From Nitrospirota bacterium (lineage in GTDB: Bacteria > Nitrospirota > Nitrospiria > Nitrospirales > Nitrospiraceae), in contig JAUSMA010000015.1 of assembly GCA_030645475.1 (NCBI GenBank), forward strand, positions 62,001 to 126,000: a DNA stretch of 64,000 nt, read 5' to 3'. The notes under the pieces were generated by a model that ran no database searches, was not told the origin of the DNA, and saw nothing but the letters and a program-made list of their open reading frames with translations. Of the stretch, positions 49,757 through 60,702 are shown piece by piece. The stretch's first letter is position 1. Every line of letters begins with the position of its first letter. The position numbers were made by a program, and so were the translations under genes.

Positions 49757-51319
49757 ATGGCTCTATCAACCAGTGTCCACGATCTCCGCACCCTGATCCG
49801 CTCGTACCATCCCCTGATCGTCATCGAGACGGTGGAAGAAGAGCGGGTGCTCACCTTGCTGCAATCCGTGGCCGCGCAAGAACGCATGCCCCTCTTCGAA
49901 TGGTCCGTCACCAGAGGGCTCACCCGCACCGACGACAGCCCCAGCCTGAGCAAGATGACCGCCACCCCGCTGGCCCTCCTGCAGCACCTCAACGGGTTGA
50001 CCGTGGAAGGAATCTTTTGGCTCAAAGACCTTGCGCCCCACTTGCAAGAGGCGGCTGTTGCGCGGCAGTTACGGGAAGTCAGTCAACACTTTGGCCGGTC
50101 ACGTGCGACCTCTGTGTTGACCGGCCATCCGATCGCCCTGCCGCTCGACCTCGAACAGATCGCCGTGCGGCTCGACTTGCAACTGCCGGATCGAGACGAA
50201 CTCCAATCCATGCTCCAGAGCGCACTGCAGTCGCTCGGTCCCAGAACCTCGCCCCATCGCCCGCGATCGACCACCGTCGTACAAAGTATTCTCCGCTCCA
50301 TCAGCGACTCCAAGCCGGCGGACCAGGGCGCCTCGGCGGACGAGCGTGACGCCATCCTTCGCGCGTTACAGGGGCTGACGCTCCATCAGGCGCGCCAGGT
50401 CATCACGCAATGCGTCGTCGAAGACGGCACCCTCTCCGCCGACGACGTACAAAAGATTCTGAAGCGCAAGGTACAGGCAATCAAGGACGGCGGACTGCTT
50501 GAATATTATCCGCTTGAGGACAACCGGTTCGAACTGGGCGGGTTCGTCAATCTGAAATCCTGGCTGGAACGAGCGAAGGTCGGTTTTACCTCGGAAGCCA
50601 AGGCGCTCAATCTCGCGCCCCCTCGCGGCATCATGCTGGTGGGCGTGCCGGGCTGCGGCAAATCGCTTGCGGCGAAGGCGATCGCGCGGGAATGGCAGCT
50701 TCCGCTCCTCAAGCTGGACGCAGGCCGGTTGTTCGATAAATTCGTCGGCGAGTCGGAAAAGAACTTCCGCAAGGCGATCGAAACGGCTGAGTCGCTCTCG
50801 CCCATCGTCCTCTGGATCGATGAAATCGAGAAGGCGATGGCCTCAGGGGGCGGAAGCGGCGAAGCCGATGCCGGCTTGAGCCGCCGGCTCTTCGGCGCAT
50901 TTCTCACCTGGCTTCAGGAAAAGAAGCAAGAAGTCTTCGTCGTGGCGACGGCCAACAATCTTTCGTTGCTCCCGCCCGAACTCCTTCGCAAGGGCCGGTT
51001 CGATGAAATTTTCTTCGTGGACCTGCCGGATGATGGCGAACGAGAGGCCATCTGGAACATACACCTCGCCCTCCGCAAACAAAACAGCACGGCATTCGAT
51101 GTGGGAAAAATCGTCAGCGCCAGCGACGGATTCAGCGGCTCGGAAATAGAACAGGCTGTGGTCGCGGCTCTCTACCGCGCCCTCCATCGAAGAACACCGT
51201 TAACCACCGACCTGTTGATTGAAGAGTTGACCCATACTGTGCCACTCTCCGTGACCAGGCGCGAAGATATCGATCAGCTTCGGGAGATGGCGCAAGGCCG
51301 GTTCGTCAACGTACGGTGA
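49757..51319 (+). CDS. AAA+ ATPase (Ycf46-like)
   Basis: The 520-residue cytoplasmic protein has an N-terminal ~250-residue helical domain (PLIVIETVEEERVLTLLQ) and a C-terminal AAA+ domain. Walker A is GVPGCGKS (296-303), Walker B VLWIDE (351-356), and the sensor region is VATANNLSLLPPELLRKGRFDE with an arginine finger in the same helix. This resembles Ycf46/CbbX-like remodelling proteins of the AAA+ family. The substrate is unknown. It is followed, with a coupled GTG/ATG start, by the NlpC-type lipoprotein. Confidence 0.88.
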   Translation: MALSTSVHDLRTLIRSYHPLIVIETVEEERVLTLLQSVAAQERMPLFEWSVTRGLTRTDDSPSLSKMTATPLALLQHLNGLTVEGIFWLKDLAPHLQEAAVARQLREVSQHFGRSRATSVLTGHPIALPLDLEQIAVRLDLQLPDRDELQSMLQSALQSLGPRTSPHRPRSTTVVQSILRSISDSKPADQGASADERDAILRALQGLTLHQARQVITQCVVEDGTLSADDVQKILKRKVQAIKDGGLLEYYPLEDNRFELGGFVNLKSWLERAKVGFTSEAKALNLAPPRGIMLVGVPGCGKSLAAKAIAREWQLPLLKLDAGRLFDKFVGESEKNFRKAIETAESLSPIVLWIDEIEKAMASGGGSGEADAGLSRRLFGAFLTWLQEKKQEVFVVATANNLSLLPPELLRKGRFDEIFFVDLPDDGEREAIWNIHLALRKQNSTAFDVGKIVSASDGFSGSEIEQAVVAALYRALHRRTPLTTDLLIEELTHTVPLSVTRREDIDQLREMAQGRFVNVR

Positions 51320-51324
51320 GACCC

Positions 51325-51993
51325 ATGCGATTCCTCTTCATCCTCACAACTCTCGCGATCGTGACGCTCGTCGGCTGTGCCGGCGTTGCCAGAGATCGCA
51401 CACAAGGGATCGCGCTGGACAGCCAGGAATGCTGCAGGACGGTGGACGCGACGCCCCGTCAAACGGCCGTCGTCCGCACCGCAACGCAGCTCATCGGCGC
51501 CCGCACCATCGACGTGAATGGCCGCCGCATCGCCTACGACTGCGCCGGAGTCACTCGCGCCATTTATCTCAAGCACGGAATCGATCTCTATCAAGGCGGA
51601 CCCAGCGCCCGTCACGCCAACGGGGTCCGGATCATCCATGCCCATATACGCCAACAAGGCACGTTCCACCAAGGCCCCATGGTCCACCCAGGCGACCTCG
51701 TATTTTTCGACAATACCTGGGACTTCAACAGAGATGGCAAGGTGAACGACCCTTTAACGCACGTCGGAATCGTCGAGCGGCAGGACCAGGACGGCACCGT
51801 CGTCTTCATCAGCCGCGTAGCCGGCGCCGTTGAACGGTACCATATGAATCTCGCCCTCCCGCATGTGCATAAAACCGCCGATGGCCGAATCCTCAACGAC
51901 TATCTTCGCCGCAAGGATGCCATCGACCCAGCCGATACCGGCTACCTCGCGGGCGAATTGTTCTCGCAATTCGCCACTCGCATCGAGCCCTAA
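51325..51993 (+). CDS. NlpC/P60-type lipoprotein peptidase
   Basis: The ATG at 51325 (GGTGAG upstream) gives a 222-residue lipoprotein with lipobox LVGC. The catalytic Cys is in the helix YDCAGVTRAIYLKHGI, and the His is in LTHVGIVERQDQDG after FFDNTWDFNRDGK. These are the NlpC/P60 motifs of enzymes that cut peptidoglycan stem peptides. The insertion between the two motifs is longer than usual. It probably trims the wall outside the cell. Confidence 0.85.
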   Translation: MRFLFILTTLAIVTLVGCAGVARDRTQGIALDSQECCRTVDATPRQTAVVRTATQLIGARTIDVNGRRIAYDCAGVTRAIYLKHGIDLYQGGPSARHANGVRIIHAHIRQQGTFHQGPMVHPGDLVFFDNTWDFNRDGKVNDPLTHVGIVERQDQDGTVVFISRVAGAVERYHMNLALPHVHKTADGRILNDYLRRKDAIDPADTGYLAGELFSQFATRIEP

Positions 51994-52335
51994 CTAGAAG
52001 TTCTCAGTTCGAGTTCGCCGCTCCCAAATCCTCGCACAGCGTGACTCAATGGCCCTCGCCCTCCGAACAACGAAAGATCACCGCGCAGGATGCTCAAAAA
52101 TACTGTCCAGCAAGGCCGCAGCGAGTGAAGACCGGAGGCGTACCCTCAGGGGTACGTTGAGGATCTGAACGATGCGAGAACGCCGCTGGCAGGATTTTTC
52201 AGCATCCTGCTAGCCAAATCCGCAACAGACGCTATACTTCACCAATATGGTCTGTTTCATCGCACTTATTCGCTCCGTATTCCGGGCGGTTCAACGCAGC
52301 GCAATACACTGTGCGACAGAGTCCAAGGAGGGACC
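51994..52335. other. Intergenic region holding a family 1 repeat
   Basis: No gene is seen in this 342 bp. It contains repeat copy 3 (52085-52210) and the upstream region of the small cysteine-rich gene. Confidence 0.5.
52085..52210. repeat. Palindromic intergenic repeat, family 1, copy 3
   Basis: The ends gcaggatgctcaaaaa and tttttcagcatcctgc are inverted repeats with one mismatch. The left arm continues with CCAGCAAGGCCGCAGCGAG, and the centre has the palindrome gtaccctcaggggtac. The 126 bp copy has the same orientation as copy 4 and lies 92 bases after the NlpC gene. Confidence 0.85.
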
Positions 52336-52500
52336 ATGGGACAGACAGCAACCTATTGCAGCGACTGTTACAACAAGGTGGGACGGGCACAGGACCCTCA
52401 GATCAAAGCAGCGGAGAGCGACGGCAAGGTCCCGATGACGAAAGAAGGCGCCTGCTGCTCGTGCCAGAAGGCCACCGTCGTGGTCTACTTCGAGGGGTAA
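52336..52500 (+). CDS. Small cysteine-rich protein (54 residues)
   Basis: The ATG at 52336 follows a perfect Shine-Dalgarno (AAGGAGG). The 54-residue protein has C8 and C11 in TYCSDCYN and C40, C41, C43 in GACCSCQK, a probable zinc or Fe-S binding pattern. The closing VVVYFEG is a likely beta-strand. No family is recognised. It sits between a repeat and the first of two paralogous orphans. Confidence 0.7.
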   Translation: MGQTATYCSDCYNKVGRAQDPQIKAAESDGKVPMTKEGACCSCQKATVVVYFEG

Positions 52501-52556
52501 CCGTCCTGGTCGACCCGGCACCTCTCCCGGCACAAGGAGCCTGCTACACTTACCCT

Positions 52557-52991
52557 ATGGCAACGACCTCACGATCCAGTCGGGCTCCCCACCCCGATCC
52601 TCTGCGCCACACGATGCGAGAGGTGCATCAGAAACTGTTGTCGCTCTATAGCGCGTTGATTGTGGCGGAGCGGCTCACCTACGAGCGCATCCATGGCCAT
52701 ATCGACTCGACGGACGAGCTCATCCAGTTGGTGCTCAAAGACCCTTGGTTTACCTGGCTCTGCCCCCTCTTGGATCTGTTGGTCCGGATCGATCAGCTTC
52801 TCGAAGACGACGCCTTCGACATCACGAGTGAAAATGTCAAACATCTTGTATCCGAGGTGCGCACGTTGACCCGCCCGTCGATCGAGGGCGACGGATTCGA
52901 GCGTGCCTACTACGAGGCGCTCAATCGAGCCCCTGATGTCGTGCTCGCCCATTTCCAGGTCACGCGCGTTCTATTGGCAAAAGCCGCCTAA
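52557..52991 (+). CDS. Orphan protein, member 1 of a tandem paralogous pair
   Basis: The frame is open from 52311, but the ATG at 52557 gives the 144-residue protein that matches the second member. Soluble and helical, it shares LVLKDPWFTWLCP and EGDGFERAYYEAL with the next gene (LVLNDPWFTWLHP, EGDGFERCYYEAL). No catalytic motif or known domain is recognised. Both copies lie close together on the same strand, a sign of tandem duplication. Function is unknown. Confidence 0.7.
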   Translation: MATTSRSSRAPHPDPLRHTMREVHQKLLSLYSALIVAERLTYERIHGHIDSTDELIQLVLKDPWFTWLCPLLDLLVRIDQLLEDDAFDITSENVKHLVSEVRTLTRPSIEGDGFERAYYEALNRAPDVVLAHFQVTRVLLAKAA

Positions 52992-53153
52992 CGTCCTCCC
53001 GCGCAATCCACTCGCCTCTTGCCAGCTCACGATCTGTTCATGACACTACAGAATGGAATTGAATCTGCCGATAGGCACATCATGACGGAGATCGGCCTTC
53101 GAAAAAAATATTCGACGGCCACCATTTTTATAATAACCTGCTAAAATAATTTC

Positions 53154-53585
53154 ATGTCGTCTGTCTCTCACAAAACCAGAACCAAGCAATCCTGCCCGCT
53201 CCGGACGAGACTCCTCGAGGTGCGAGGAGGACTCTTGGGGCTCCATAAGGCCCTCATTCTGGCAGAACAAGTCACCTACGAACGCATCAATGGCCGTGTG
53301 GCATCCAGCGGCCAATTGCTGCAACTGGTGTTGAACGATCCTTGGTTTACCTGGCTGCACCCCATCTCTCAACTCGTGGTGAGCATCGACGACTTGCTCG
53401 ACAATGAGTCAGAACTCTCGCCCGTTGAGGTGGAGCACTTTCTCATAGAAGCCCGAGCCCTCATCCGTCCTTCGGAGGAAGGAGACGGATTCGAACGGTG
53501 TTACTACGAAGCGCTTCAGCGGGAACCGGACGTCATCTTCGCCCACGTCGAAGTCAAAAAACTGCTGACCAACATCGCCGCGTAA
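53154..53585 (+). CDS. Orphan protein, member 2 of a tandem paralogous pair
   Basis: The 143-residue protein aligns over its whole length with the one encoded just upstream. Conserved points are (V/L)TYERI(N/H)G near residue 45, LVLNDPWFTWLHP, SIDDLLDN and PSEEGDGFERCYYEAL. The most divergent part is the first ~30 residues. The 162 bp gap between the pair is AT-rich and holds the likely separate promoter. Confidence 0.72.
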   Translation: MSSVSHKTRTKQSCPLRTRLLEVRGGLLGLHKALILAEQVTYERINGRVASSGQLLQLVLNDPWFTWLHPISQLVVSIDDLLDNESELSPVEVEHFLIEARALIRPSEEGDGFERCYYEALQREPDVIFAHVEVKKLLTNIAA

Positions 53586-53711
53586 TCCCTTCTGCATCCG
53601 TCTGTCATTCCATTTCCACCCCTCAGCGCATAGAACTTCAGGCTATGGGCCTTCGGCCTATCCTGTTCAAACTTGTGTTACCGTGAAATATGCTCTTCAT
53701 GGAGGCCCTCT

Positions 53712-54341
53712 ATGAATTTCCTGACCCCTCGATTCCTGTGTGTGCTGGCCAGCCTCTGCCTCTTCGCCAGCATGGCTGTGGCCCAAGGCCATCGCGGAGA
53801 CGTCACGATCGCAGTGATGCACGACAAAATCATCGCGTTGCCGGCCGGCGGGAGAGGGATGGAGGAATCTCTCGGGCTGAATGAAACCGTCATCGTCGCA
53901 GAGGCATGGGGACAAACCGCATTTGCCCAGACCACCAACCGGCTCTTGGGATTTCCTTCTGAGCTTCGACGGTGGACAGACGTACAGCTGGACAGCGGGG
54001 AAGAGGTCGGACGCCATCACGTCCTACCACGATTAATTCTCGCGCAAAGCGACCGACGGGTCTATGGATTCCAGGAGGGGCGAGGACATTGGACGGCTGA
54101 ACCGCTCGGAACCAGGGAGACCGTGAAGCAGCTGCATGACCGGGGACATGTCGCTGTGGCGATCACGGCCGAACGCGCCATGGCATTCTCCTCCTACACA
54201 GGTGGCATCTTCTCCATCCCCTGGTCGACCGACGAAAAGGTGTTGTCCGTAGAAGACTCACACGACTCTTATATGGTCCGGACCTCGACTCGCATGTTGG
54301 TATTCCGCTCACAGAGTACCAAATGGATGGAGGTGAAATAG
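53712..54341 (+). CDS. Exported protein with beta-propeller-like repeats
   Basis: The ATG at 53712 follows GGAGG and begins a signal peptide (LCVLASLCLFASMAVAQG). The mature ~185 residues contain repeating short beta segments that recall propeller blades (KIIALPAGGRGMEESLGLN, RVYGFQEGRGHWTAEPLG, RAMAFSSYTGGIFSIPW, RMLVFRSQSTKWMEV). No enzyme motif is seen. It is likely periplasmic. Function is unknown. Confidence 0.75.
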   Translation: MNFLTPRFLCVLASLCLFASMAVAQGHRGDVTIAVMHDKIIALPAGGRGMEESLGLNETVIVAEAWGQTAFAQTTNRLLGFPSELRRWTDVQLDSGEEVGRHHVLPRLILAQSDRRVYGFQEGRGHWTAEPLGTRETVKQLHDRGHVAVAITAERAMAFSSYTGGIFSIPWSTDEKVLSVEDSHDSYMVRTSTRMLVFRSQSTKWMEVK

Positions 54342-54485
54342 GCCAAAACAGTCTACGGGCCATCCGGCCCCTCGTCAGCTGAACCGAAAACTTGAGCCTC
54401 GCCCCTCACATTGCAGTAGCCACAAATCAAGTTTTTCTCGCCTCTACCGATATCCTCTGTAGAATTCAATACGGAGGTCCTAGCA

Positions 54486-54851
54486 ATGCAACCACGATGT
54501 CGTCTTCGAGTGCCGGTCGGCTATGCTGCCCGTATCCAAAGCGATACCGGCGCAGGAGAAGGGGTCTTGCTCGACCTCTCGCCCACGGGCTGCAAGATGC
54601 GCAGCGACATTGCGCTGAATGCAGGGGCTTACCTCACATTACACATTGCTGTCGCTCAAGAACCAACCCCCCTCGCAGTGGAAGTCTCGGTGGTGCGCTG
54701 GTGTAAAGACGGCCACATCGGCGTAGAGTTTCTTCGGTATAGACAGGGAGACCGTGAACGAGTCACCGACCTTGTCGAGCCCCTGCCACAGACTGAACTA
54801 TCTGCCCATCCCGATTACGCCACATCGACCTTAACCGCCGTCAGCTCTTAA
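54486..54851 (+). CDS. PilZ-domain protein (c-di-GMP receptor)
   Basis: The 121-residue protein has the PilZ motif RxxxR at R4-R8 (RCRLR), and the second part (D/N)xSxxG in LLDLSPTGCKMR. The domain covers residues ~4-105. PilZ proteins bind c-di-GMP and switch motility, polysaccharide or pilus functions. No effector gene is adjacent. The C-terminal ~20 residues are polar and variable. Confidence 0.88.
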   Translation: MQPRCRLRVPVGYAARIQSDTGAGEGVLLDLSPTGCKMRSDIALNAGAYLTLHIAVAQEPTPLAVEVSVVRWCKDGHIGVEFLRYRQGDRERVTDLVEPLPQTELSAHPDYATSTLTAVSS

Positions 54852-54914
54852 TTCGCTGTTCGTGCGAGACTCGCGAGACTTGCGCGAAACGCGAAGCGAA
54901 CGAGACCGGAGACA

Positions 54915-54960
54915 GTTCGAAGTTCGAGGTTTTCTGAACTTCGAACCTAGAACTTCGAAC
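54915..54960. repeat. Inverted repeat downstream of the PilZ gene
   Basis: gttcgaagttcgaggtt and aacctagaacttcgaac pair with one mismatch; the part between them also contains aacttcgaac. It lies ~64 bases beyond the PilZ stop and could be a weak terminator or a degraded repeat element. Confidence 0.6.
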
Positions 54961-55012
54961 CGCGCCTATCGCGCACATCTTGCCCGTCTCGCCCACAGCT
55001 CTACAAACACGA

Positions 55013-55052
55013 AGGCGGCCGGCCCTGAAGGACCGACCGCCTCGTTTTCAAC
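55013..55052. terminator. Terminator-like hairpin between converging genes
   Basis: aaggcggccggccc pairs with ggaccgaccgcct around a short loop. It lies downstream of the PilZ gene on one strand and of the His/Lys-rich exported gene on the other. T-rich sequence follows on the plus strand (cgttttc). Confidence 0.6.
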
Positions 55053-55077
55053 CTATGCTACCGAGTGGCGCTATCGC

Positions 55078-55386
55078 TTAGTGCTTCTCGCCCTTGTCGC
55101 CCTCTTCGTGCTTGTCGCCATGCTTCTCACGGTCTTTGTGCTTTCCACCCTTCTTATGCTCGCCATCTTTCCGGTGCTTTCCGCTCTTGCCATGCTTTCC
55201 CTTCTCGCCTTCGCCCTTAGGCGCTTCCACCGCTGGAGCTGGAGCAGGAGCGGCTGCAGGAGCCGTAACCTGAGGAGCCGGGGCGGCTGGTGCTGCGGCT
55301 GGAGCCGCATCAGGCGCTTGGGCCAAGGCACCGGTAAAAGCGTACAACACGGCGGCAGCCGTCAAAGAAGCCACTGTTCTGGTCAT
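55078..55386 (-). CDS. Small exported Ala/Pro- and Lys/His-rich protein
   Basis: The ATG at 55386 follows GGGAGGA and begins a signal peptide (AAAVLYAFTGALAQ). The first mature half is an Ala/Pro linker. The second half is a run of Lys, His, Gly and Asp/Glu repeats (KGKHGKSGKHRKDGEHKKGG). Low-complexity histidine-rich tails can bind metal ions such as nickel, zinc or copper, but no known chaperone family is recognised. The opposite reading frame also stays open, as expected for biased codons. Confidence 0.65.
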   Translation of the reverse strand: MTRTVASLTAAAVLYAFTGALAQAPDAAPAAAPAAPAPQVTAPAAAPAPAPAVEAPKGEGEKGKHGKSGKHRKDGEHKKGGKHKDREKHGDKHEEGDKGEKH

Positions 55387-55670
55387 GCGAATCCTCCCTG
55401 GATTTAGTTCAAATAGTGAGGTGGCAACCACCCCTCGGCCTCATCATCGCAAGGCCAATGCCACGGTTATGCCACAAATCGCTGCAAATTTCTCAAGAAA
55501 CTAGAAGGTCACCCCTGCCACAGAACAAATCCACTCAAAAAATGAGGCAATATGGCTGGTTCTTCCTCCATCCCGCCCCAACGAGATCAATCGAGTTAGA
55601 TGACGGTCTGGCAAGGCTTTCAGCCCCTCAACGCCAGATGAATCAGCCTGCGAATTTGAGATCCTATACC
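55387..55670. other. Gene-free region, repeat at its right end
   Basis: No ORF with coding character is found. It contains the promoter side of the His-rich gene and continues into repeat copy 4. Confidence 0.4.
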
Positions 55671-55794
55671 TAGGCTGTTCAAAATGGCCGTTCAGCAAGG
55701 CCGCAGCGAGTGAAGACCGGAGACGTACCCTCAGGGGTACGTTGAGGATCTGAACGATGCGAGAACGATGCTGGCGGACTTTTTCAACAGCCTA
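55671..55794. repeat. Palindromic intergenic repeat, family 1, copy 4
   Basis: The 124 bp copy has ends taggctgttcaaaa and tttttcaacagccta. The left arm continues into gttCAGCAAGGCCGCAGCGAG, and the centre holds gtaccctcaggggtac. It ends exactly at the stop codon of the DUF5069 gene: the last three bases (cta) are the reverse complement of its TAG. Confidence 0.88.
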
Positions 55795-56232
55795 GAGACG
55801 TCCTTCGTCGAGTTCGATCGCATCCACCCATGTCGAAGCAGGAGGGAGAGAGCTGACCGCGACGCCACGCTTCTTGGCAACATCATCCAGCCGCCCCTGA
55901 AGCCGGGCACGAGTGGCGTCATCTTTCGGACCGGACGACAGCAGCCCCTGCGTCCACTGCGCGATCTCCTCGTGCGAATGCGGCTTGCCATTCGCCACGA
56001 CCCAGGCGAGCAACTGCTCATCCGTCCCACCGGCCAATACTTGTTGCTCAAACGCCTTCGGATCGATCTGCAGAAAATCGACCAGGTACTTATCGAACCC
56101 AGCGGTGATGTAGTTGTAGTCCTGAATCTTGCCTGCATGCCGCAGACGAATCTTATCGATAAACCGCCCCAAGTGGGCAATGCCACCGAGAAGGGCTTTA
56201 GGACTACGGGGATAGGTTTGTTGCGTCATCAT
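55792..56232 (-). CDS. DUF5069-domain protein
   Basis: The start is one of three consecutive ATGs; the one at 56232 is chosen for the spacing to GGAGA. The ~146-residue protein carries the DUF5069 pattern (LGGIAHLGRFIDKIRLRHAGKIQDYNYITAGFDKYLVDFLQI, the acidic LLAWV helix, and HSHEEIAQWTQGLLSSGP). The family is uncharacterised. The TAG stop lies in the terminal inverted repeat of element copy 4, so that element has shaped the C-terminus. Confidence 0.85.
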   Translation of the reverse strand: MMTQQTYPRSPKALLGGIAHLGRFIDKIRLRHAGKIQDYNYITAGFDKYLVDFLQIDPKAFEQQVLAGGTDEQLLAWVVANGKPHSHEEIAQWTQGLLSSGPKDDATRARLQGRLDDVAKKRGVAVSSLPPASTWVDAIELDEGRL

Positions 56233-56794
56233 CATTTCTCCAGATTTGTGATTGTTCAAAACATACAGATGAGGAAGAGAGAAGTCTAGGAGGGGTAATC
56301 CACTTGACGAGCGCTGACATGCTGCCGCTGCTCCCCACCTCCCAGAACGGCCCTTCCGGGCTTGGCAGAGCGGAAGCCTTCTGGAATTCCTTCGGCTGCG
56401 GTCAACGACCGCAGTACCTCAGTCAGTTCCAGCTTTCCCAGCGCGCATGATCCATGAGGGCTCTACTGCAACTGCAGACACGCCGCTACGACAAGCCAGT
56501 ATGCTCATAGTCTACATACTGGCGGGCGGGCTCGCCCCTCCCGACCTCAACGTACTGCTTCGAGTACGCCTCGGCCTCTCGGGGCTCCGCGCGCCCGTCT
56601 CGCTTGGCGTCTCCACAGTTTCGTAACGAGCCCCCATGAATCAAGCACGCTAGCCAAGCCTCGGTGGGTCCCCGTTCTTCCGGTGAGGTCGCGCGGCAGC
56701 ATGCCAGCGCTCGGAGAAATCAACGGTTCGTAAATTCTTTTCTTTGCATGAACCTATTCTTTGCCGAGCGCCAGTCTTACGTACACATTTGCGG
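56233..56794. other. Gene-free ~560 bp with palindromic segments
   Basis: No coding ORF is found on either strand. It includes GC-rich hairpin-prone words (56520-56630, around tactgcttcgagtacgcctcggcctctcggggctcc) that look like another degraded repeat. It leads into the integron-like remnant. Confidence 0.4.
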
Positions 56795-56854
56795 GTTTAG
56801 CGTTGGCGGTAACCGGCCTGCCGGAGGCAGGTTCGGTTGCCAGAAGGGTTAGGC
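56795..56854 (-). repeat. attC-like site of cassette C
   Basis: On the minus strand it begins with GCCTAAC (56848-56854) right after the gene end. It continues with a stem, CCTGCC-TCC-GGCAGG flanked by CAACCG and CGGTTA with unpaired bases, and ends near GCTAAAC (56795-56801). The outer core deviates from the GTTRRRY consensus by one base. Confidence 0.6.
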
Positions 56855-56861
56855 AAATGAA

Positions 56862-57134
56862 TCACTTGCAGCTGAATTGAACTTCAGCACCGGCGAACGA
56901 AGAGTAAGGCATATAAGGTTTCGCATCCGAGCTTTGTACTGACATTTGCTTTTCTTGCTTCGCACAGAATGCGGCGGCCTCTTTTAAAATTTCTACTTTC
57001 GTTGCGTTTCCGTTGTAAGCCCATGCATCCTCTTTTGCATAGACGTAGTTACCTCCACCGAGATCAACGATGCCTGAATTTGTTGCGCACCCAGACAGTG
57101 CCAGTGGGATAAGTGCAACAATAATAATTCGCAT
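56862..57134 (-). CDS. Cassette C: small lipoprotein
   Basis: The ATG at 57134 follows GAGGAG and lies ~24 bases after the core GTTAGGC, typical of integron cassettes. The 90-residue protein has a lipoprotein signal (LIPLALSGCATNSG). The mature part has a conserved-looking NYVYAKEDAWAYNGNATK segment and two cysteines (FCAKQ and the final FSCK). It is a small periplasmic lipoprotein of unknown function. Cassettes often carry such short exported proteins. Confidence 0.65.
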   Translation of the reverse strand: MRIIIVALIPLALSGCATNSGIVDLGGGNYVYAKEDAWAYNGNATKVEILKEAAAFCAKQEKQMSVQSSDAKPYMPYSSFAGAEVQFSCK

Positions 57135-57157
57135 ATTTACTCCTCGAAGATTGAGTT

Positions 57158-57164
57158 GCCTAAC
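57158..57164 (-). other. Core site preceding cassette C
   Basis: On the minus strand GTTAGGC, with upstream GGCCTGAACATT. The segment resembles the 3' half of an attC, but its partner 5' half is unclear. An attI-like site is an alternative, given the integrase fragment ~140 bases upstream. Confidence 0.5.
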
Positions 57165-57598
57165 AATGTTCAGGCCGATCCGCATAAGAGCCGAGCCTGC
57201 CATTTCTGTCCGCGTAACACGCCATCAATGATCGTGAACAATATCCCATAATCGACGGGGGTCCTATGCGGATCCGCATAACAGCACCTCCGAAAGGGGG
57301 TTCAAAGTCCGTCCAGCGGACTGCGAACAGCCCCTGGCCCTCGGCTGAGCACATGCGTGATGATCATTGTCGTTTTGACGTCGCGATGCCCCAAGAACTC
57401 CTAATGGTTCGAATGTCAAAGCCGCTTTCGGGCAGATGCGCGGCAGAAACAACTGTGGCTGCCACCTTTGCTTTCTCCACGAGAGATACAGGAGCCTGAT
57501 TACTTTATTTTTCCTGCTCAACAAGATGCAAAGTCAAGCAACGCCCCCGCACTTTGACGTGAGGTGCGCGTATACGCGCGTCGCTCTCAATCCGCGGG
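57165..57598 (-). other. Gap in the array between cassette B and the core of cassette C
   Basis: This 434 bp contains the intI fragment (57302-57447). A repeat-like stretch is close by, with GTTATGCGGATCCGCATA on the minus strand (near 57262-57281) and TTATGCGGATCGG (near 57172-57186). These could be remains of an attI site or an old attC. No complete gene is seen. Confidence 0.45.
57302..57447 (-). pseudogene. Integron integrase (intI) C-terminal fragment, frameshifted
   Basis: From 57400 down to a stop at 57302 the minus strand reads, in one frame, [16 protein letters not shown]...[10 protein letters not shown]. That closely follows the C-terminus of IntI integrases (LGHxDVxTTMIYTHVL...GVRSPLD). 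The preceding codons in a shifted frame read HLPESGFDIRTI, matching the next upstream IntI segment. One base is missing at about 57402. The nucleophile Tyr (IYTHV) is replaced by Ile. The remaining ~50 residues represent about one seventh of an integrase. No intact copy is in the window. Confidence 0.7.
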
Positions 57599-58159
57599 CT
57601 AGACCTTATCACCGACCATCCTTTCGGCGTGTTGTAACAGCTTGACCCAGAACTCCAAACCACCGACGTGCTCCGGTTTAACACCGTCGCCATCGAGAGC
57701 TGTTGCGTCAAACGTGAACGTCGAGCCGTTATCAAGGACGATTGGATAAGCATTTCGGTATTTCTGGAACACGAGCCACTTGGGGCGCCACGGATTGTGG
57801 GCGAACGCGTTACGCAGTTGGCTCACCATGACTCTGATCCCGACCCGATTAACATCAGTATCAGCTGATAGCTTGTCGAACACTTGATCGAATGTTTCGT
57901 CGACAGTGAGGGCAGAGGCGCTAAGCGCAATGAGAACGAGGTTGGACGCTCCGAGTTGGAGGTCTTGAGCTGTTCCTTCCGGAAAGGATGGAAGAAACAC
58001 GCCAGCACCTCCAGTAATCACACTGACCTCGTGCTTGAATATCCCTGCATCGATCCGACCGGACAGTACCTCGGCATTCAGCCGGAACGCCAAATTCAGA
58101 ACCGCTTGTGCGGTAGCGATCTTGTTCGCTGGATTTTCGATACCATGACCGCTTGCCAT
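57599..58159 (-). CDS. Cassette B: HEPN-like protein
   Basis: The 186-residue soluble protein begins six bases from the core GTTAGAT (58164-58170) and has no clear Shine-Dalgarno. Its central helical part contains SQLRNAFAHNPWRP, which fits R-x4-H of the HEPN RNase fold. HEPN proteins are common in toxin-antitoxin and defence systems. The N-terminal half is a helical bundle of unknown type. Codon use and lower GC differ from the chromosome. Without an adjacent antitoxin gene the toxin reading is open, and it may work alone or with the next cassettes. Confidence 0.6.
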   Translation of the reverse strand: MASGHGIENPANKIATAQAVLNLAFRLNAEVLSGRIDAGIFKHEVSVITGGAGVFLPSFPEGTAQDLQLGASNLVLIALSASALTVDETFDQVFDKLSADTDVNRVGIRVMVSQLRNAFAHNPWRPKWLVFQKYRNAYPIVLDNGSTFTFDATALDGDGVKPEHVGGLEFWVKLLQHAERMVGDKV

Positions 58160-58163
58160 AGAG

Positions 58164-58226
58164 ATCTAACGGGAAGCTAAGGGTCGCCGCGCTTGCGTGG
58201 CATCCCGCTTGAGCGCATGGTTAGAC
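58164..58226 (-). repeat. attC site between cassettes A and B
   Basis: The minus strand reads GTCTAAC at 58220-58226 directly after the TAA stop of cassette A, then GCTCAAGCGGGATGCC, a variable part, GGCGACCC, GCTTCCC, and GTTAGAT at 58164-58170. The outer cores are complementary. AAGC/GCTT pairs in the way seen in classical attC sites. At 63 bp this is the clearest site in the array. Confidence 0.85.
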
Positions 58227-58589
58227 TTAGCCATTGGTTGGCAAGACCATTGGTATGGTGAACTGTATGCGAGATTGTGAGGTATTGGACGCATCACTCT
58301 TTCCCTGACTGCCAAGTGCTACCATGCCAACCATCAAGCCTACTCCACCTTTAGTTTCGGTGCCTTGAGCAACGGAAACAGCAACATCAAAATTTATACT
58401 TTGAACAGCTTGGCGCATCTTTTTATCTTCGGATACATAACCATAGACCTTTGCATCAGCTGTTCCATGAGCTCCGACTACACTACGAGGGTTTACAATT
58501 GCACTTGTCCCCTTAAGCGCGATACTTGCCTCGTCAATGCCCTGAGCGATTTGCACTAAAGTTTCTTTAATGAAATTTCGTAAGTCCAT
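58227..58589 (-). CDS. Cassette A: trypco2-like protein
   Basis: The ATG at 58589 has GAGGAA upstream and lies 14 bases after the core GTTAGAC. The 120-residue protein has a helical start (MDLRNFIKETLVQIAQGID) and a C-terminal beta part (INFDVAVSVAQGTETKGGVG, QSRIQFTIPMVLP). This resembles the trypsin-co-occurring domain (trypco2) found with proteases in conflict systems, a resemblance from memory. The stop TAA abuts the attC. Function is unknown. Confidence 0.6.
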   Translation of the reverse strand: MDLRNFIKETLVQIAQGIDEASIALKGTSAIVNPRSVVGAHGTADAKVYGYVSEDKKMRQAVQSINFDVAVSVAQGTETKGGVGLMVGMVALGSQGKSDASNTSQSRIQFTIPMVLPTNG

Positions 58590-58603
58590 AAAAATTCCTC
58601 TAT

Positions 58604-58610
58604 GTCTAAC
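58604..58610 (-). other. Core site preceding cassette A
   Basis: GTTAGAC on the minus strand, 14 bases before the start codon. No clear attC or attI lies further upstream: the next ~70 bases hold a hairpin-prone stretch (gttacc...ggtaac type) but no recognisable partner site. Confidence 0.5.
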
Positions 58611-58938
58611 TATTAAGTGAGCAGCGGAAGGGACATGGCTACAGGTAACCTATCCCTGCCTGCGCCAGAACTCTGGTTACTGAAAAGCTGAGAGATCATC
58701 CGCATTTCGAGGATCTGTGTCAATAACGACCCACAAGAATACACTGCCATTCGCGCGACCTATCTTCCTATTGGAAGATTCAAATGGCGGCTGGAACTGT
58801 TTCAGACTTCAATTAGGTGTGTCGGAGCGAAGAGCGAACTTTTCGAAGGACCAGGGATGGGGGCTGATTGATCTTCCACCGCGCGCGTCTTCTCACTTCC
58901 CCATTTCATTTTCAAGGGTAGCCTGGTCGATCCTCAAT
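58611..58938. other. Region upstream of the cassette array, no gene seen
   Basis: About 330 bp with no ORF of coding character. It contains a GGTAACC..CTGGTTAC type imperfect palindrome near 58654-58680, and at its right end leads into the family 2 repeat. The promoter of the cassette array should lie here. Confidence 0.4.
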
Positions 58939-59095
58939 TGCGCGCGTCGAACGAGCACATTCTGATCGTGCGCGTTCCGCGAGCAGGAGGACGGCAAGGC
59001 TATCCTTCCCATCCTTCGGAGGCCGCGCGTTGCGCGAGCACAGAAGAGCATCAGGCTCCATCCCCTCCGCATTCTGCGAGCAGAGGAGATTGACC
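58939..59095. repeat. GC-rich intergenic repeat, family 2, copy 2
   Basis: cgcgcgtcgaacgagcacattctgatcgtgcgcgttccgcgagca and gccgcgcgttgcgcgagcacag appear with the same spacing as at 11582-11684. A further unit (ttctgcgagcagag) continues to 59095. The copy lies downstream of gltD, whereas copy 1 lies inside an operon. Confidence 0.7.
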
Positions 59096-59118
59096 AGGGT
59101 GGACTTAGATTTAATCGA

Positions 59119-59128
59119 GGGGGGGGGG
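59119..59128. repeat. Run of ten G residues just beyond gltD
   Basis: A homopolymer (gggggggggg) begins three bases beyond the gltD stop codon on the minus strand (where it reads as ten C). Homopolymers of this length are prone to slippage. Here it lies outside the coding sequence. Confidence 0.7.
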
Positions 59129-59131
59129 AAT

Positions 59132-60568
59132 TTAGGAGGCTGACTTTTTGGCAGACTTGCCTGCACGCAGGTATTGATCAACCCCCGCCGCCATCTTGCG
59201 CCCTTCGGCAATCGCCCAAACGATGAGTGAGGCGCCGCGCTTGGTGTCGCCGCCGGCAAAGACGCCGTCGAGGTTGGTCATGAAGCCTTCGTCCACCGAC
59301 ACGGCACCACGGGCGTCATACTTCACGCCAAGGCTATCGAGCAGGCCGTTCTTCACCGGGCCGGTGAAGCCCATCGCCAGTAGGATCAAATCCGCATCCA
59401 TCGTGAAGTCGCTGTTGGGAATCGGCATGAACTTACCGCCTTCGAACTTCACCTGATTGCCGTGAAGCTTCGTGACCTGGCCATTCTCGCCGGTGAACTT
59501 GGTGGTCGAAATGCTCCATTGCCGGTCGCAGCCCTCTTCATGCGCATGCGAGGTGCGAAGCTGCATCGGCCACAGCGGCCAGGGTGTCGAACCCGCGCGG
59601 GTTGGGGGCGGCTCCGGCATCACTTCAAACTGATGGGCTTCGACGCAGCCCTGCCGATGGGCGGTACCGAGACAGTCCGAGCCGGTGTCGCCGCCGCCGA
59701 TGATGATGACGCGCTTGCCCTTCGCCAGGATCGGCTCGTCCGTCACGGGAAGGCCCGACGTGCGTCTGTTCTGCTGGGTCAAGAACTCCATCGCGAGATG
59801 CACGCCCTTGAGTTCGCGGCCAGGAATCGGCAGCTCGCGGGCCTGCTCTGCCCCCATGGTCAGGCCGACGGCGTCGAACTGCTTCCGCAACTGCTCACCC
59901 GTGATGTCTGTCCCAATCGTCACGCCGGTCTTGAACTCGACCCCCTCGGCCTTCATCTGATCCAGGCGCCGGTCGATGACCCACTTTTCCATTTTGAAAT
60001 CGGGGATGCCGTAGCGCAGCAGGCCGCCGATACGATCGGACTTCTCGAAAAGCGTGACGCGATGGCCGGCACGCGCAAGCTGCTGCGCAGCGGCCATACC
60101 CGCCGGACCTGACCCGATAATCGCCACCGTCTTGCCCGTCTTCACCACTGGAAGAATCGGTTCGACGTAGCCCTCATTGAAGCCACGATCGATGATGTTC
60201 CACTCGAGAATCCGAATCGAGACCGGATCTTCGTTGATGCCGAGCACGCAGGCCCCTTCACAGGGCGCCGGGCAGAGGCGGCCGGTGAACTCGGGGAAAT
60301 TGTTCGTCGTATGGAGCGCCTTGAGCGCGTCTTTCCAGCGGCCACGATAAACGAGATCGTTCCACTCGGGAATCAGGTTCACGACCGGACAACCGGTCGA
60401 CCCCTGACAGAAGGGCACGCCGCAATCCATACAACGCGCGCCTTGCGTCTTGAGCTTCTCCTCGGCGAGCGGCTCGTACATTTCCTTCCACTCAAGCACG
60501 CGCAGCTCGACCGGTTTCCGCTTGGGGCCCTCACGGGCGAATTTCATGAAACCTTTTGGATCACCCAT
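59132..60568 (-). CDS. gltD: Glutamate synthase small subunit (NADPH, GltD)
   Basis: The 478-residue flavoprotein has an N-terminal cysteine-rich Fe-S region (CMDCGVPFCQGSTGCPV, TGRLCPAPCEGACVLGI). An FAD-binding Rossmann motif follows (VAIIGSGPAGMAAAQQLARAGHRVTLFE), with an NAD(P)H-binding motif in VIIIGGGDTGSDCLGTA. The C-terminal ATG-like segment is GVFAGGDTKRGASLIVWAIAEG. With GltB it makes glutamate from glutamine and 2-oxoglutarate. It is separated from gltB by 145 bp containing repeats. Confidence 0.95.
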   Translation of the reverse strand: MGDPKGFMKFAREGPKRKPVELRVLEWKEMYEPLAEEKLKTQGARCMDCGVPFCQGSTGCPVVNLIPEWNDLVYRGRWKDALKALHTTNNFPEFTGRLCPAPCEGACVLGINEDPVSIRILEWNIIDRGFNEGYVEPILPVVKTGKTVAIIGSGPAGMAAAQQLARAGHRVTLFEKSDRIGGLLRYGIPDFKMEKWVIDRRLDQMKAEGVEFKTGVTIGTDITGEQLRKQFDAVGLTMGAEQARELPIPGRELKGVHLAMEFLTQQNRRTSGLPVTDEPILAKGKRVIIIGGGDTGSDCLGTAHRQGCVEAHQFEVMPEPPPTRAGSTPWPLWPMQLRTSHAHEEGCDRQWSISTTKFTGENGQVTKLHGNQVKFEGGKFMPIPNSDFTMDADLILLAMGFTGPVKNGLLDSLGVKYDARGAVSVDEGFMTNLDGVFAGGDTKRGASLIVWAIAEGRKMAAGVDQYLRAGKSAKKSAS

Positions 60569-60582
60569 TTCTTCTAGTCCTA

Positions 60583-60702
60583 CGTGCTGAGTTCTGAGTG
60601 CTGCGTGCTGAGTTCTGAGTCATATGTCCAACATACTGAGACCTAAGTATCGATTCTGAAAGACTGACGTCTCAGCACTCAGGACTTTGAACTCAGCACT
60701 GT
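60583..60702. repeat. Direct and inverted short repeats between gltD and gltB
   Basis: cgtgctgagttctgagt occurs at 60583-60599 and again at 60604-60620. The right part (60671-60700) contains ctcagcactcaggactttgaactcagcact, an inverted version. The set can form hairpins in the intercistronic mRNA and may modulate the gltB to gltD ratio. Confidence 0.65.

Follow-up and report, generated by a model that had tools for sequence, protein, structure and literature searches.

A probable HEPN-like protein carried alone by a cassette of a dead integron array in a Nitrospirota genome

Why should a predicted RNase travel by itself on an integron cassette, without an antitoxin? If the interpretation given here is true, this question is raised by a small gene in the window, that is, the whole 64,000-nucleotide stretch of a Nitrospirota bacterium contig (JAUSMA010000015.1) that was analyzed. 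A first-pass annotation, made from the letters of the DNA, had described the product as a HEPN-like protein with an R-x4-H pattern in a helical context, encoded by a cassette and lacking an adjacent antitoxin. The reading that we favor, with a confidence only somewhat better than even, is that of a lone cassette carrying a single-domain, metal-independent HEPN endoRNase that would serve in dormancy or abortive infection. The HEPN RNA-cutting signature is kept in this protein, and thus the gene probably acts alone, in self-poisoning or against phages.

The open reading frame, its strand, and its coordinates (Table 1) are exact, and there is one copy of the gene in the 3.7-Mb host genome. The nearest relative, from a Nitrosomonadaceae MAG, is divided between two contig ends: L002, corresponding to residues 74-185 and 78% identical across the matched segment, and L011, corresponding to the N-terminus, whose start codon matches that of the window gene (MASGHG / MANGHG). 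Across the codons aligned with this relative, pS is 0.84 (synonymous sites are saturated) versus a pN of 0.14, demonstrating a real gene whose product has been strongly constrained by purifying selection. Another close match, L003 from a Rhodoferax MAG, comprises the C-terminal part only and is devoid of the motif; it was therefore rejected as a full relative and treated as a remnant. The window protein had no match among Pfam, NCBIfam, PADLOC, or PHROGs models, nor among PDB sequences, and used as a query it retrieved nothing from plasmid or phage records. Likewise, a search of positions 50000-60600 against Rfam gave no match.

Table 1. Features of the cassette array and their positions in the window.
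Feature	Position	Strand	Remarks
HEPN-like protein gene	57599..58159	-	186 aa, ATG start, TAG stop
Signature RNAFAHNPWRPKW: R116-x4-H121 then P126-x-W128	57776..57814	-	R, F, H, P, and W invariant in 12 sequences
attC between upstream cassette and HEPN-like cassette	58164-58226	-	63 bp; R'' GTCTAAC, L'' GCTCAAG / L' CTTAGC, R' GTTAGAT; L boxes by eye
Degenerate attC remnant	57552..57604	-	R''-like GTCTAGC over stop codon; L'-like CGTCAAAG
Decayed integron integrase C-terminus	57302..57440	-	TIGR02249; ends at stop, frameshifted upstream
Upstream cassette gene, weakly Trypco2-like	58227..58589	-	120 aa; PF19631 E 0.042, below cut-off
Third cassette, lipoprotein-like ORF	56848..57164	-	R' GTTAGGC (57158-57164), R'' GCCTAAC (56848-56854), 7/7 complementary

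The gene is a true integron cassette. Read in the coding direction (58226-58164), the attC that separates it from the upstream cassette runs GTCTAAC-CATGC-GCTCAAG-...-CTTAGC-TTCCC-GTTAGAT and ends 4 nt before the start codon. Its R boxes are complementary at 6/7 positions, and its L boxes pair save for one extra base, an asymmetry typical of attC sites. When the bottom strand was folded as a single strand, the R boxes paired with a stability no greater than that of shuffled sequences, so the attC call rests on the boxes. The downstream attC of the cassette is not intact, with only a degenerate R'' and an L'-like box left; intact R'' boxes lie over the stop codon in L002 (ATCTAAC) and L003 (GTCTAAC). 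Downstream of the gene, and co-oriented with the cassettes, is an integrase remnant that matches positions 284-315 of TIGR02249 at 57305-57400 (E 1.4e-8), followed by a possible attI and then the lipoprotein-like cassette, which has a palindromic partial attC at 56780-56862 (fold z -2.95). The mobile location claimed by the first-pass annotation is thus borne out by both the attC and the remnant.

A functional integron was considered and rejected, as the integrase beside the array is a C-terminal remnant. No match over the TIGR02249 cut-off was found anywhere in the host genome, indicating that the array is dead. Specifically, two full-length recombinases (311 and 316 aa) were discarded as integron integrases, being XerC/XerD-like and without the segment, specific to integron integrases, between positions 184 and 239. 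Repeats were also observed in the vicinity. Positions 58970-59045 hold a dispersed repeat, TGCTCGCGCAACGCG, present in 89 copies in the genome at no more than one mismatch versus 2 for the reversed control, and two copies stand between gltD and the cassettes. In addition, a direct repeat of 122 nt (88% identical) occupies 52087-52208 and 55672-55793, part of it also occurring inverted at 56545-56572.

Lacking its own promoter and standing in an array whose integrase is lost, the gene could be a silent passenger, selected elsewhere and unexpressed in this host. The frameshifted state of the integrase is in keeping with such a history, as is a start codon that follows attC so closely, with no ribosome site evident. 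The HEPN-like frame has nonetheless stayed intact while the integrase around it decayed, and we judge a silent passenger to be rather unlikely.

Returning to the favored HEPN endoRNase, the core of the argument is the motif. RNAFAH forms residues 116-121 of the protein (57797-57814, minus strand), and twelve sequences, most of them 16-28% identical to the window protein, can be aligned over their whole length. Neither R116 nor H121 varies in the twelve (the window protein counted), and the five most conserved of the 185 positions are, in order, W128, H121, P126, F119, and R116. Eleven of the twelve sequences were retrieved without requiring the motif; the exception, L036, was retrieved through a motif pattern, and its motif is therefore not independent evidence. 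An isolated R-x4-H may arise by chance, but that of the window protein is not a chance pattern. The first-pass annotation had named lack of R and H conservation among homologues as grounds for abandoning its proposal, and both residues turned out to be conserved. Judged from the alignment, R-x4-6-H, the defining sequence feature of HEPN proteins, is conserved in this family, whose wider signature is [ILV]R[NSC][AC]F[AS]H-x4-P-x-W. The relative from Catenovulum, for example, has the variant RNAFSH, with R and H kept.

Other columns are less uniform. The polar residue that follows R in HEPN proteins is usually N, D, or H (PMC3710099); here it is N in six of the twelve sequences, including the window protein, S in four, and C in two, and the occurrence of S or C in several relatives speaks against a lone HEPN RNase. 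In the column of D66, on the second long helix, D or E is found in 9/11 sequences, the other two having Q beside a D; an acidic residue in helix 2 is an optional feature of HEPN proteins. Two motif patterns applied to viral contigs gave matches that are mostly due to chance (L025, L026, L035, L038-L044, and L046-L071), and L036 is the sole real relative obtained in this way.

The family is scattered and previously unnamed. In whole-genome searches, relatives were found in 10 of 175 genomes from the host's own bacterial family and in fewer elsewhere, a patchy distribution that includes one relative on a Catenovulum plasmid and one (L036) in the accessory region of a prophage, on a temperate-phage contig. 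The latter adjoins a gene for a MauJ-domain protein, with a D12 methylase, an HTH gene, and a ParE-like gene nearby; L008 adjoins ParE-like and DUF433 genes. The MauJ-domain protein (PF17419; L036 3000-4112, plus strand) has RNALAH near its C-terminus, and MauJ may itself be HEPN-like. No conserved antitoxin was seen among the contexts of relatives, and these contexts fit a mobile defence cargo. The HEPN-like gene is disrupted, by frameshifts or by a TGA within the frame, in L020, L022, L023 (G302), and L019 (G109), which suggests repeated gene loss.

In three genomes (L005, L014, and L015), the relative lies downstream of a co-directional HATPase_c + STAS-like (DUF4325) gene at a distance of 18-19 nt, for example at 1489-2037 behind 210-1469 in L005, so a regulatory partner is possible in that branch. 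PADLOC labels part of the HATPase_c/STAS-like protein as DrmA (E 1.9e-36, over positions 110-393 of the 1750 in the model), a label that seems to reflect the ATPase region common to both proteins. This gene pair is as compatible with a regulated partner system as with a lone RNase. It also agrees with a protein of HEPN fold whose ligand, RNA or otherwise, is bound but not cut, either as an MtlR-like regulator or as the effector in a sensor pair, and the additional invariant P-x-W likewise falls outside the known catalytic site. Families of that kind, however, lose R-x4-6-H (PMC3710099), whereas the motif is invariant here, and a non-cutting protein seems to us unlikely, slightly more so than a silent passenger.

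For the favored reading to hold, the fold must be HEPN, and a comparison of AlphaFold models with HEPN families had been proposed alongside the first-pass annotation. Two AF2 models were built from shallow alignments, the first from the window protein and L002 and the second with L036 added. Both are of low confidence (pLDDT 48.6 and 49.2) and differ in detail, and the first is helical, in agreement with the helical context already proposed for the motif. In the second, the N-terminal half consists of a helix at 10-32, a beta-hairpin at 45-56, a helix at 64-85, and a short helix at 88-94, and the C-terminal half of a helix at 102-121 ending in the motif, a beta-hairpin at 137-151, and a helix at 168-185; the predicted order of elements, at pLDDT 49, is a1-bb-a2-a3(motif)-bb-a4. 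In both models the long helix 102-121, the third long helix, has the motif at its C-terminus, and it is at the end of helix 3 that the HEPN R-x4-6-H motif stands (PMC3710099). The order of elements and the position of the motif thus agree with HEPN, while the low confidence of the models and the lack of a significant Foldseek match tell against the proposal.

At a pLDDT of 49, fold searches are nearly uninformative. Only one of the re-aligned chains listed, the HepT toxin 6m6u_D, extends across almost the entire model, with 111 residues spanning 6-186 at an rmsd of 4.6 and a Z of 5.1, such Z values being common. The fold matches listed for the pLDDT 49 model did not include 3JRT or most HEPN chains, an absence that excludes nothing. 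Profile comparisons contributed modestly. The window protein did not match PF18736 (HEPN pEK499_p136), and no relative exceeded its Pfam gathering cut-off of 26.6, the best being the Catenovulum relative with 15.0 bits over the motif region (E 0.02). The family profile, however, scored 26.0 against three PF18736 proteins, versus 17.3 for the best of 150 column shuffles and 11.4 for the reversed profile, with the similarity limited to 26 columns around the motif.

The failure of fold and family searches to return a significant match would also be expected if the family were mostly helical but unrelated to HEPN, with a structural core made up of R, F, H, P, and W; F, P, and W are indeed as invariant as R and H. 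Such a family would not readily explain a motif placed at a helix end with HEPN spacing, nor a PF18736 match that surpasses every shuffle, and we regard it as doubtful, marginally below the non-cutting protein. A HEPN fold is, in our estimation, likely for the window protein, and RNase activity, by analogy, somewhat less likely. Finally, it is most improbable that the gene encodes the toxin of a toxin-antitoxin pair split over two cassettes, with the upstream cassette or another separate gene as antitoxin: the two cassettes are neighbors in the same orientation, and the best weak match of the upstream protein is a conflict-associated domain, but an attC lies between them and no counterpart of the upstream gene is present at L011, L021, L036, or L072. 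The cassette itself has no second co-oriented ORF, and the statement that there is no adjacent antitoxin therefore holds within it.

How, then, might a lone HEPN endoRNase act? Characterised HEPN RNases cleave RNA without metal through the Arg and His of a dimer (PMC3710099); for the window protein, the HEPN fold, the dimer, the RNase activity, the substrate, and the defence role are inferred. Dimerisation through a four-helix bundle would bring together the R-x4-H sites, located where helix 3 ends, whereupon Arg and His would cut RNA without metal and leave 2',3'-cyclic phosphate ends. Cleavage of host RNA (tRNA or mRNA) or phage RNA would stop translation, leading to dormancy or abortive infection. 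Likely ways in which the protein would be kept inactive without an antitoxin are low expression from an integrase-less, dead array and allosteric activation by a phage product. It is tempting to go further and suggest a new HEPN family, R-[NSC]-[AC]-F-[AS]-H-x4-P-x-W, with a beta-hairpin between helices 3 and 4, that would serve as a lone, antitoxin-free, phage-triggered RNase where integron cassettes or prophages carry it and, on some chromosomes, as the effector in a HATPase/STAS sensor pair, but this broader scheme is a speculation that we think improbable as a whole.

If the favored reading is true, current annotation libraries have missed a HEPN-like family whose signature is now ready for finding further members, and cassette-borne HEPN genes extend past the Gammaproteobacteria, the reported hosts of the 3JRT family. 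The gene would also be a small, single-gene anti-phage candidate.

The idea that lone HEPN proteins on cassettes are not well described proved only half right, its novelty being weakened by the 'Integron cassette HEPN' family (PDB 3JRT), described with a proposed role in dormancy by Anantharaman et al. in 2013 (PMC3710099), and by the anti-phage genes of Vibrio integron cassettes (Darracq 2025 and Kieffer 2025, as cited in PMC12409362). Those Vibrio cassettes, as portrayed there, resemble the window gene in being small and single-gene with predicted defence roles; unlike them, the window array is dead, and the anti-phage role of the family is a prediction. HepT of the MntA-HepT system (6m6u) has in common with the window protein an R-x4-H-type active site and the weak whole-length structural match, but it is paired with the MntA antitoxin, whereas nothing comparable adjoins the window gene. 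PF18736 shares with the predicted layout of the window protein an R-[ND]-x3-H closing the third helix, then a beta-rich stretch and a closing helix, although the three proteins compared lack the P-x-W signature of the window family. The closest precedent in kind is Vpc_cass2, the integron-borne HEPN protein of PDB 3JRT (PMC3548836), which is likewise a single-domain protein from an integron cassette, with no partner gene reported, and a proposed dormancy-inducing RNase. Its helices follow the order 1-2-3-a'-a''-4, with two extra helices, whereas the window protein has a predicted beta-hairpin between helices 3 and 4, and the relatives of 3JRT are gammaproteobacterial, whereas the window family is mostly found in the host's own bacterial family. 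No similarity between the window family and 3JRT emerged when PDB sequences were searched by profile up to E 10, an absence that by itself excludes nothing. Taken together, the different predicted layout and the lack of detectable sequence similarity point to a new HEPN-like family within an already known kind.
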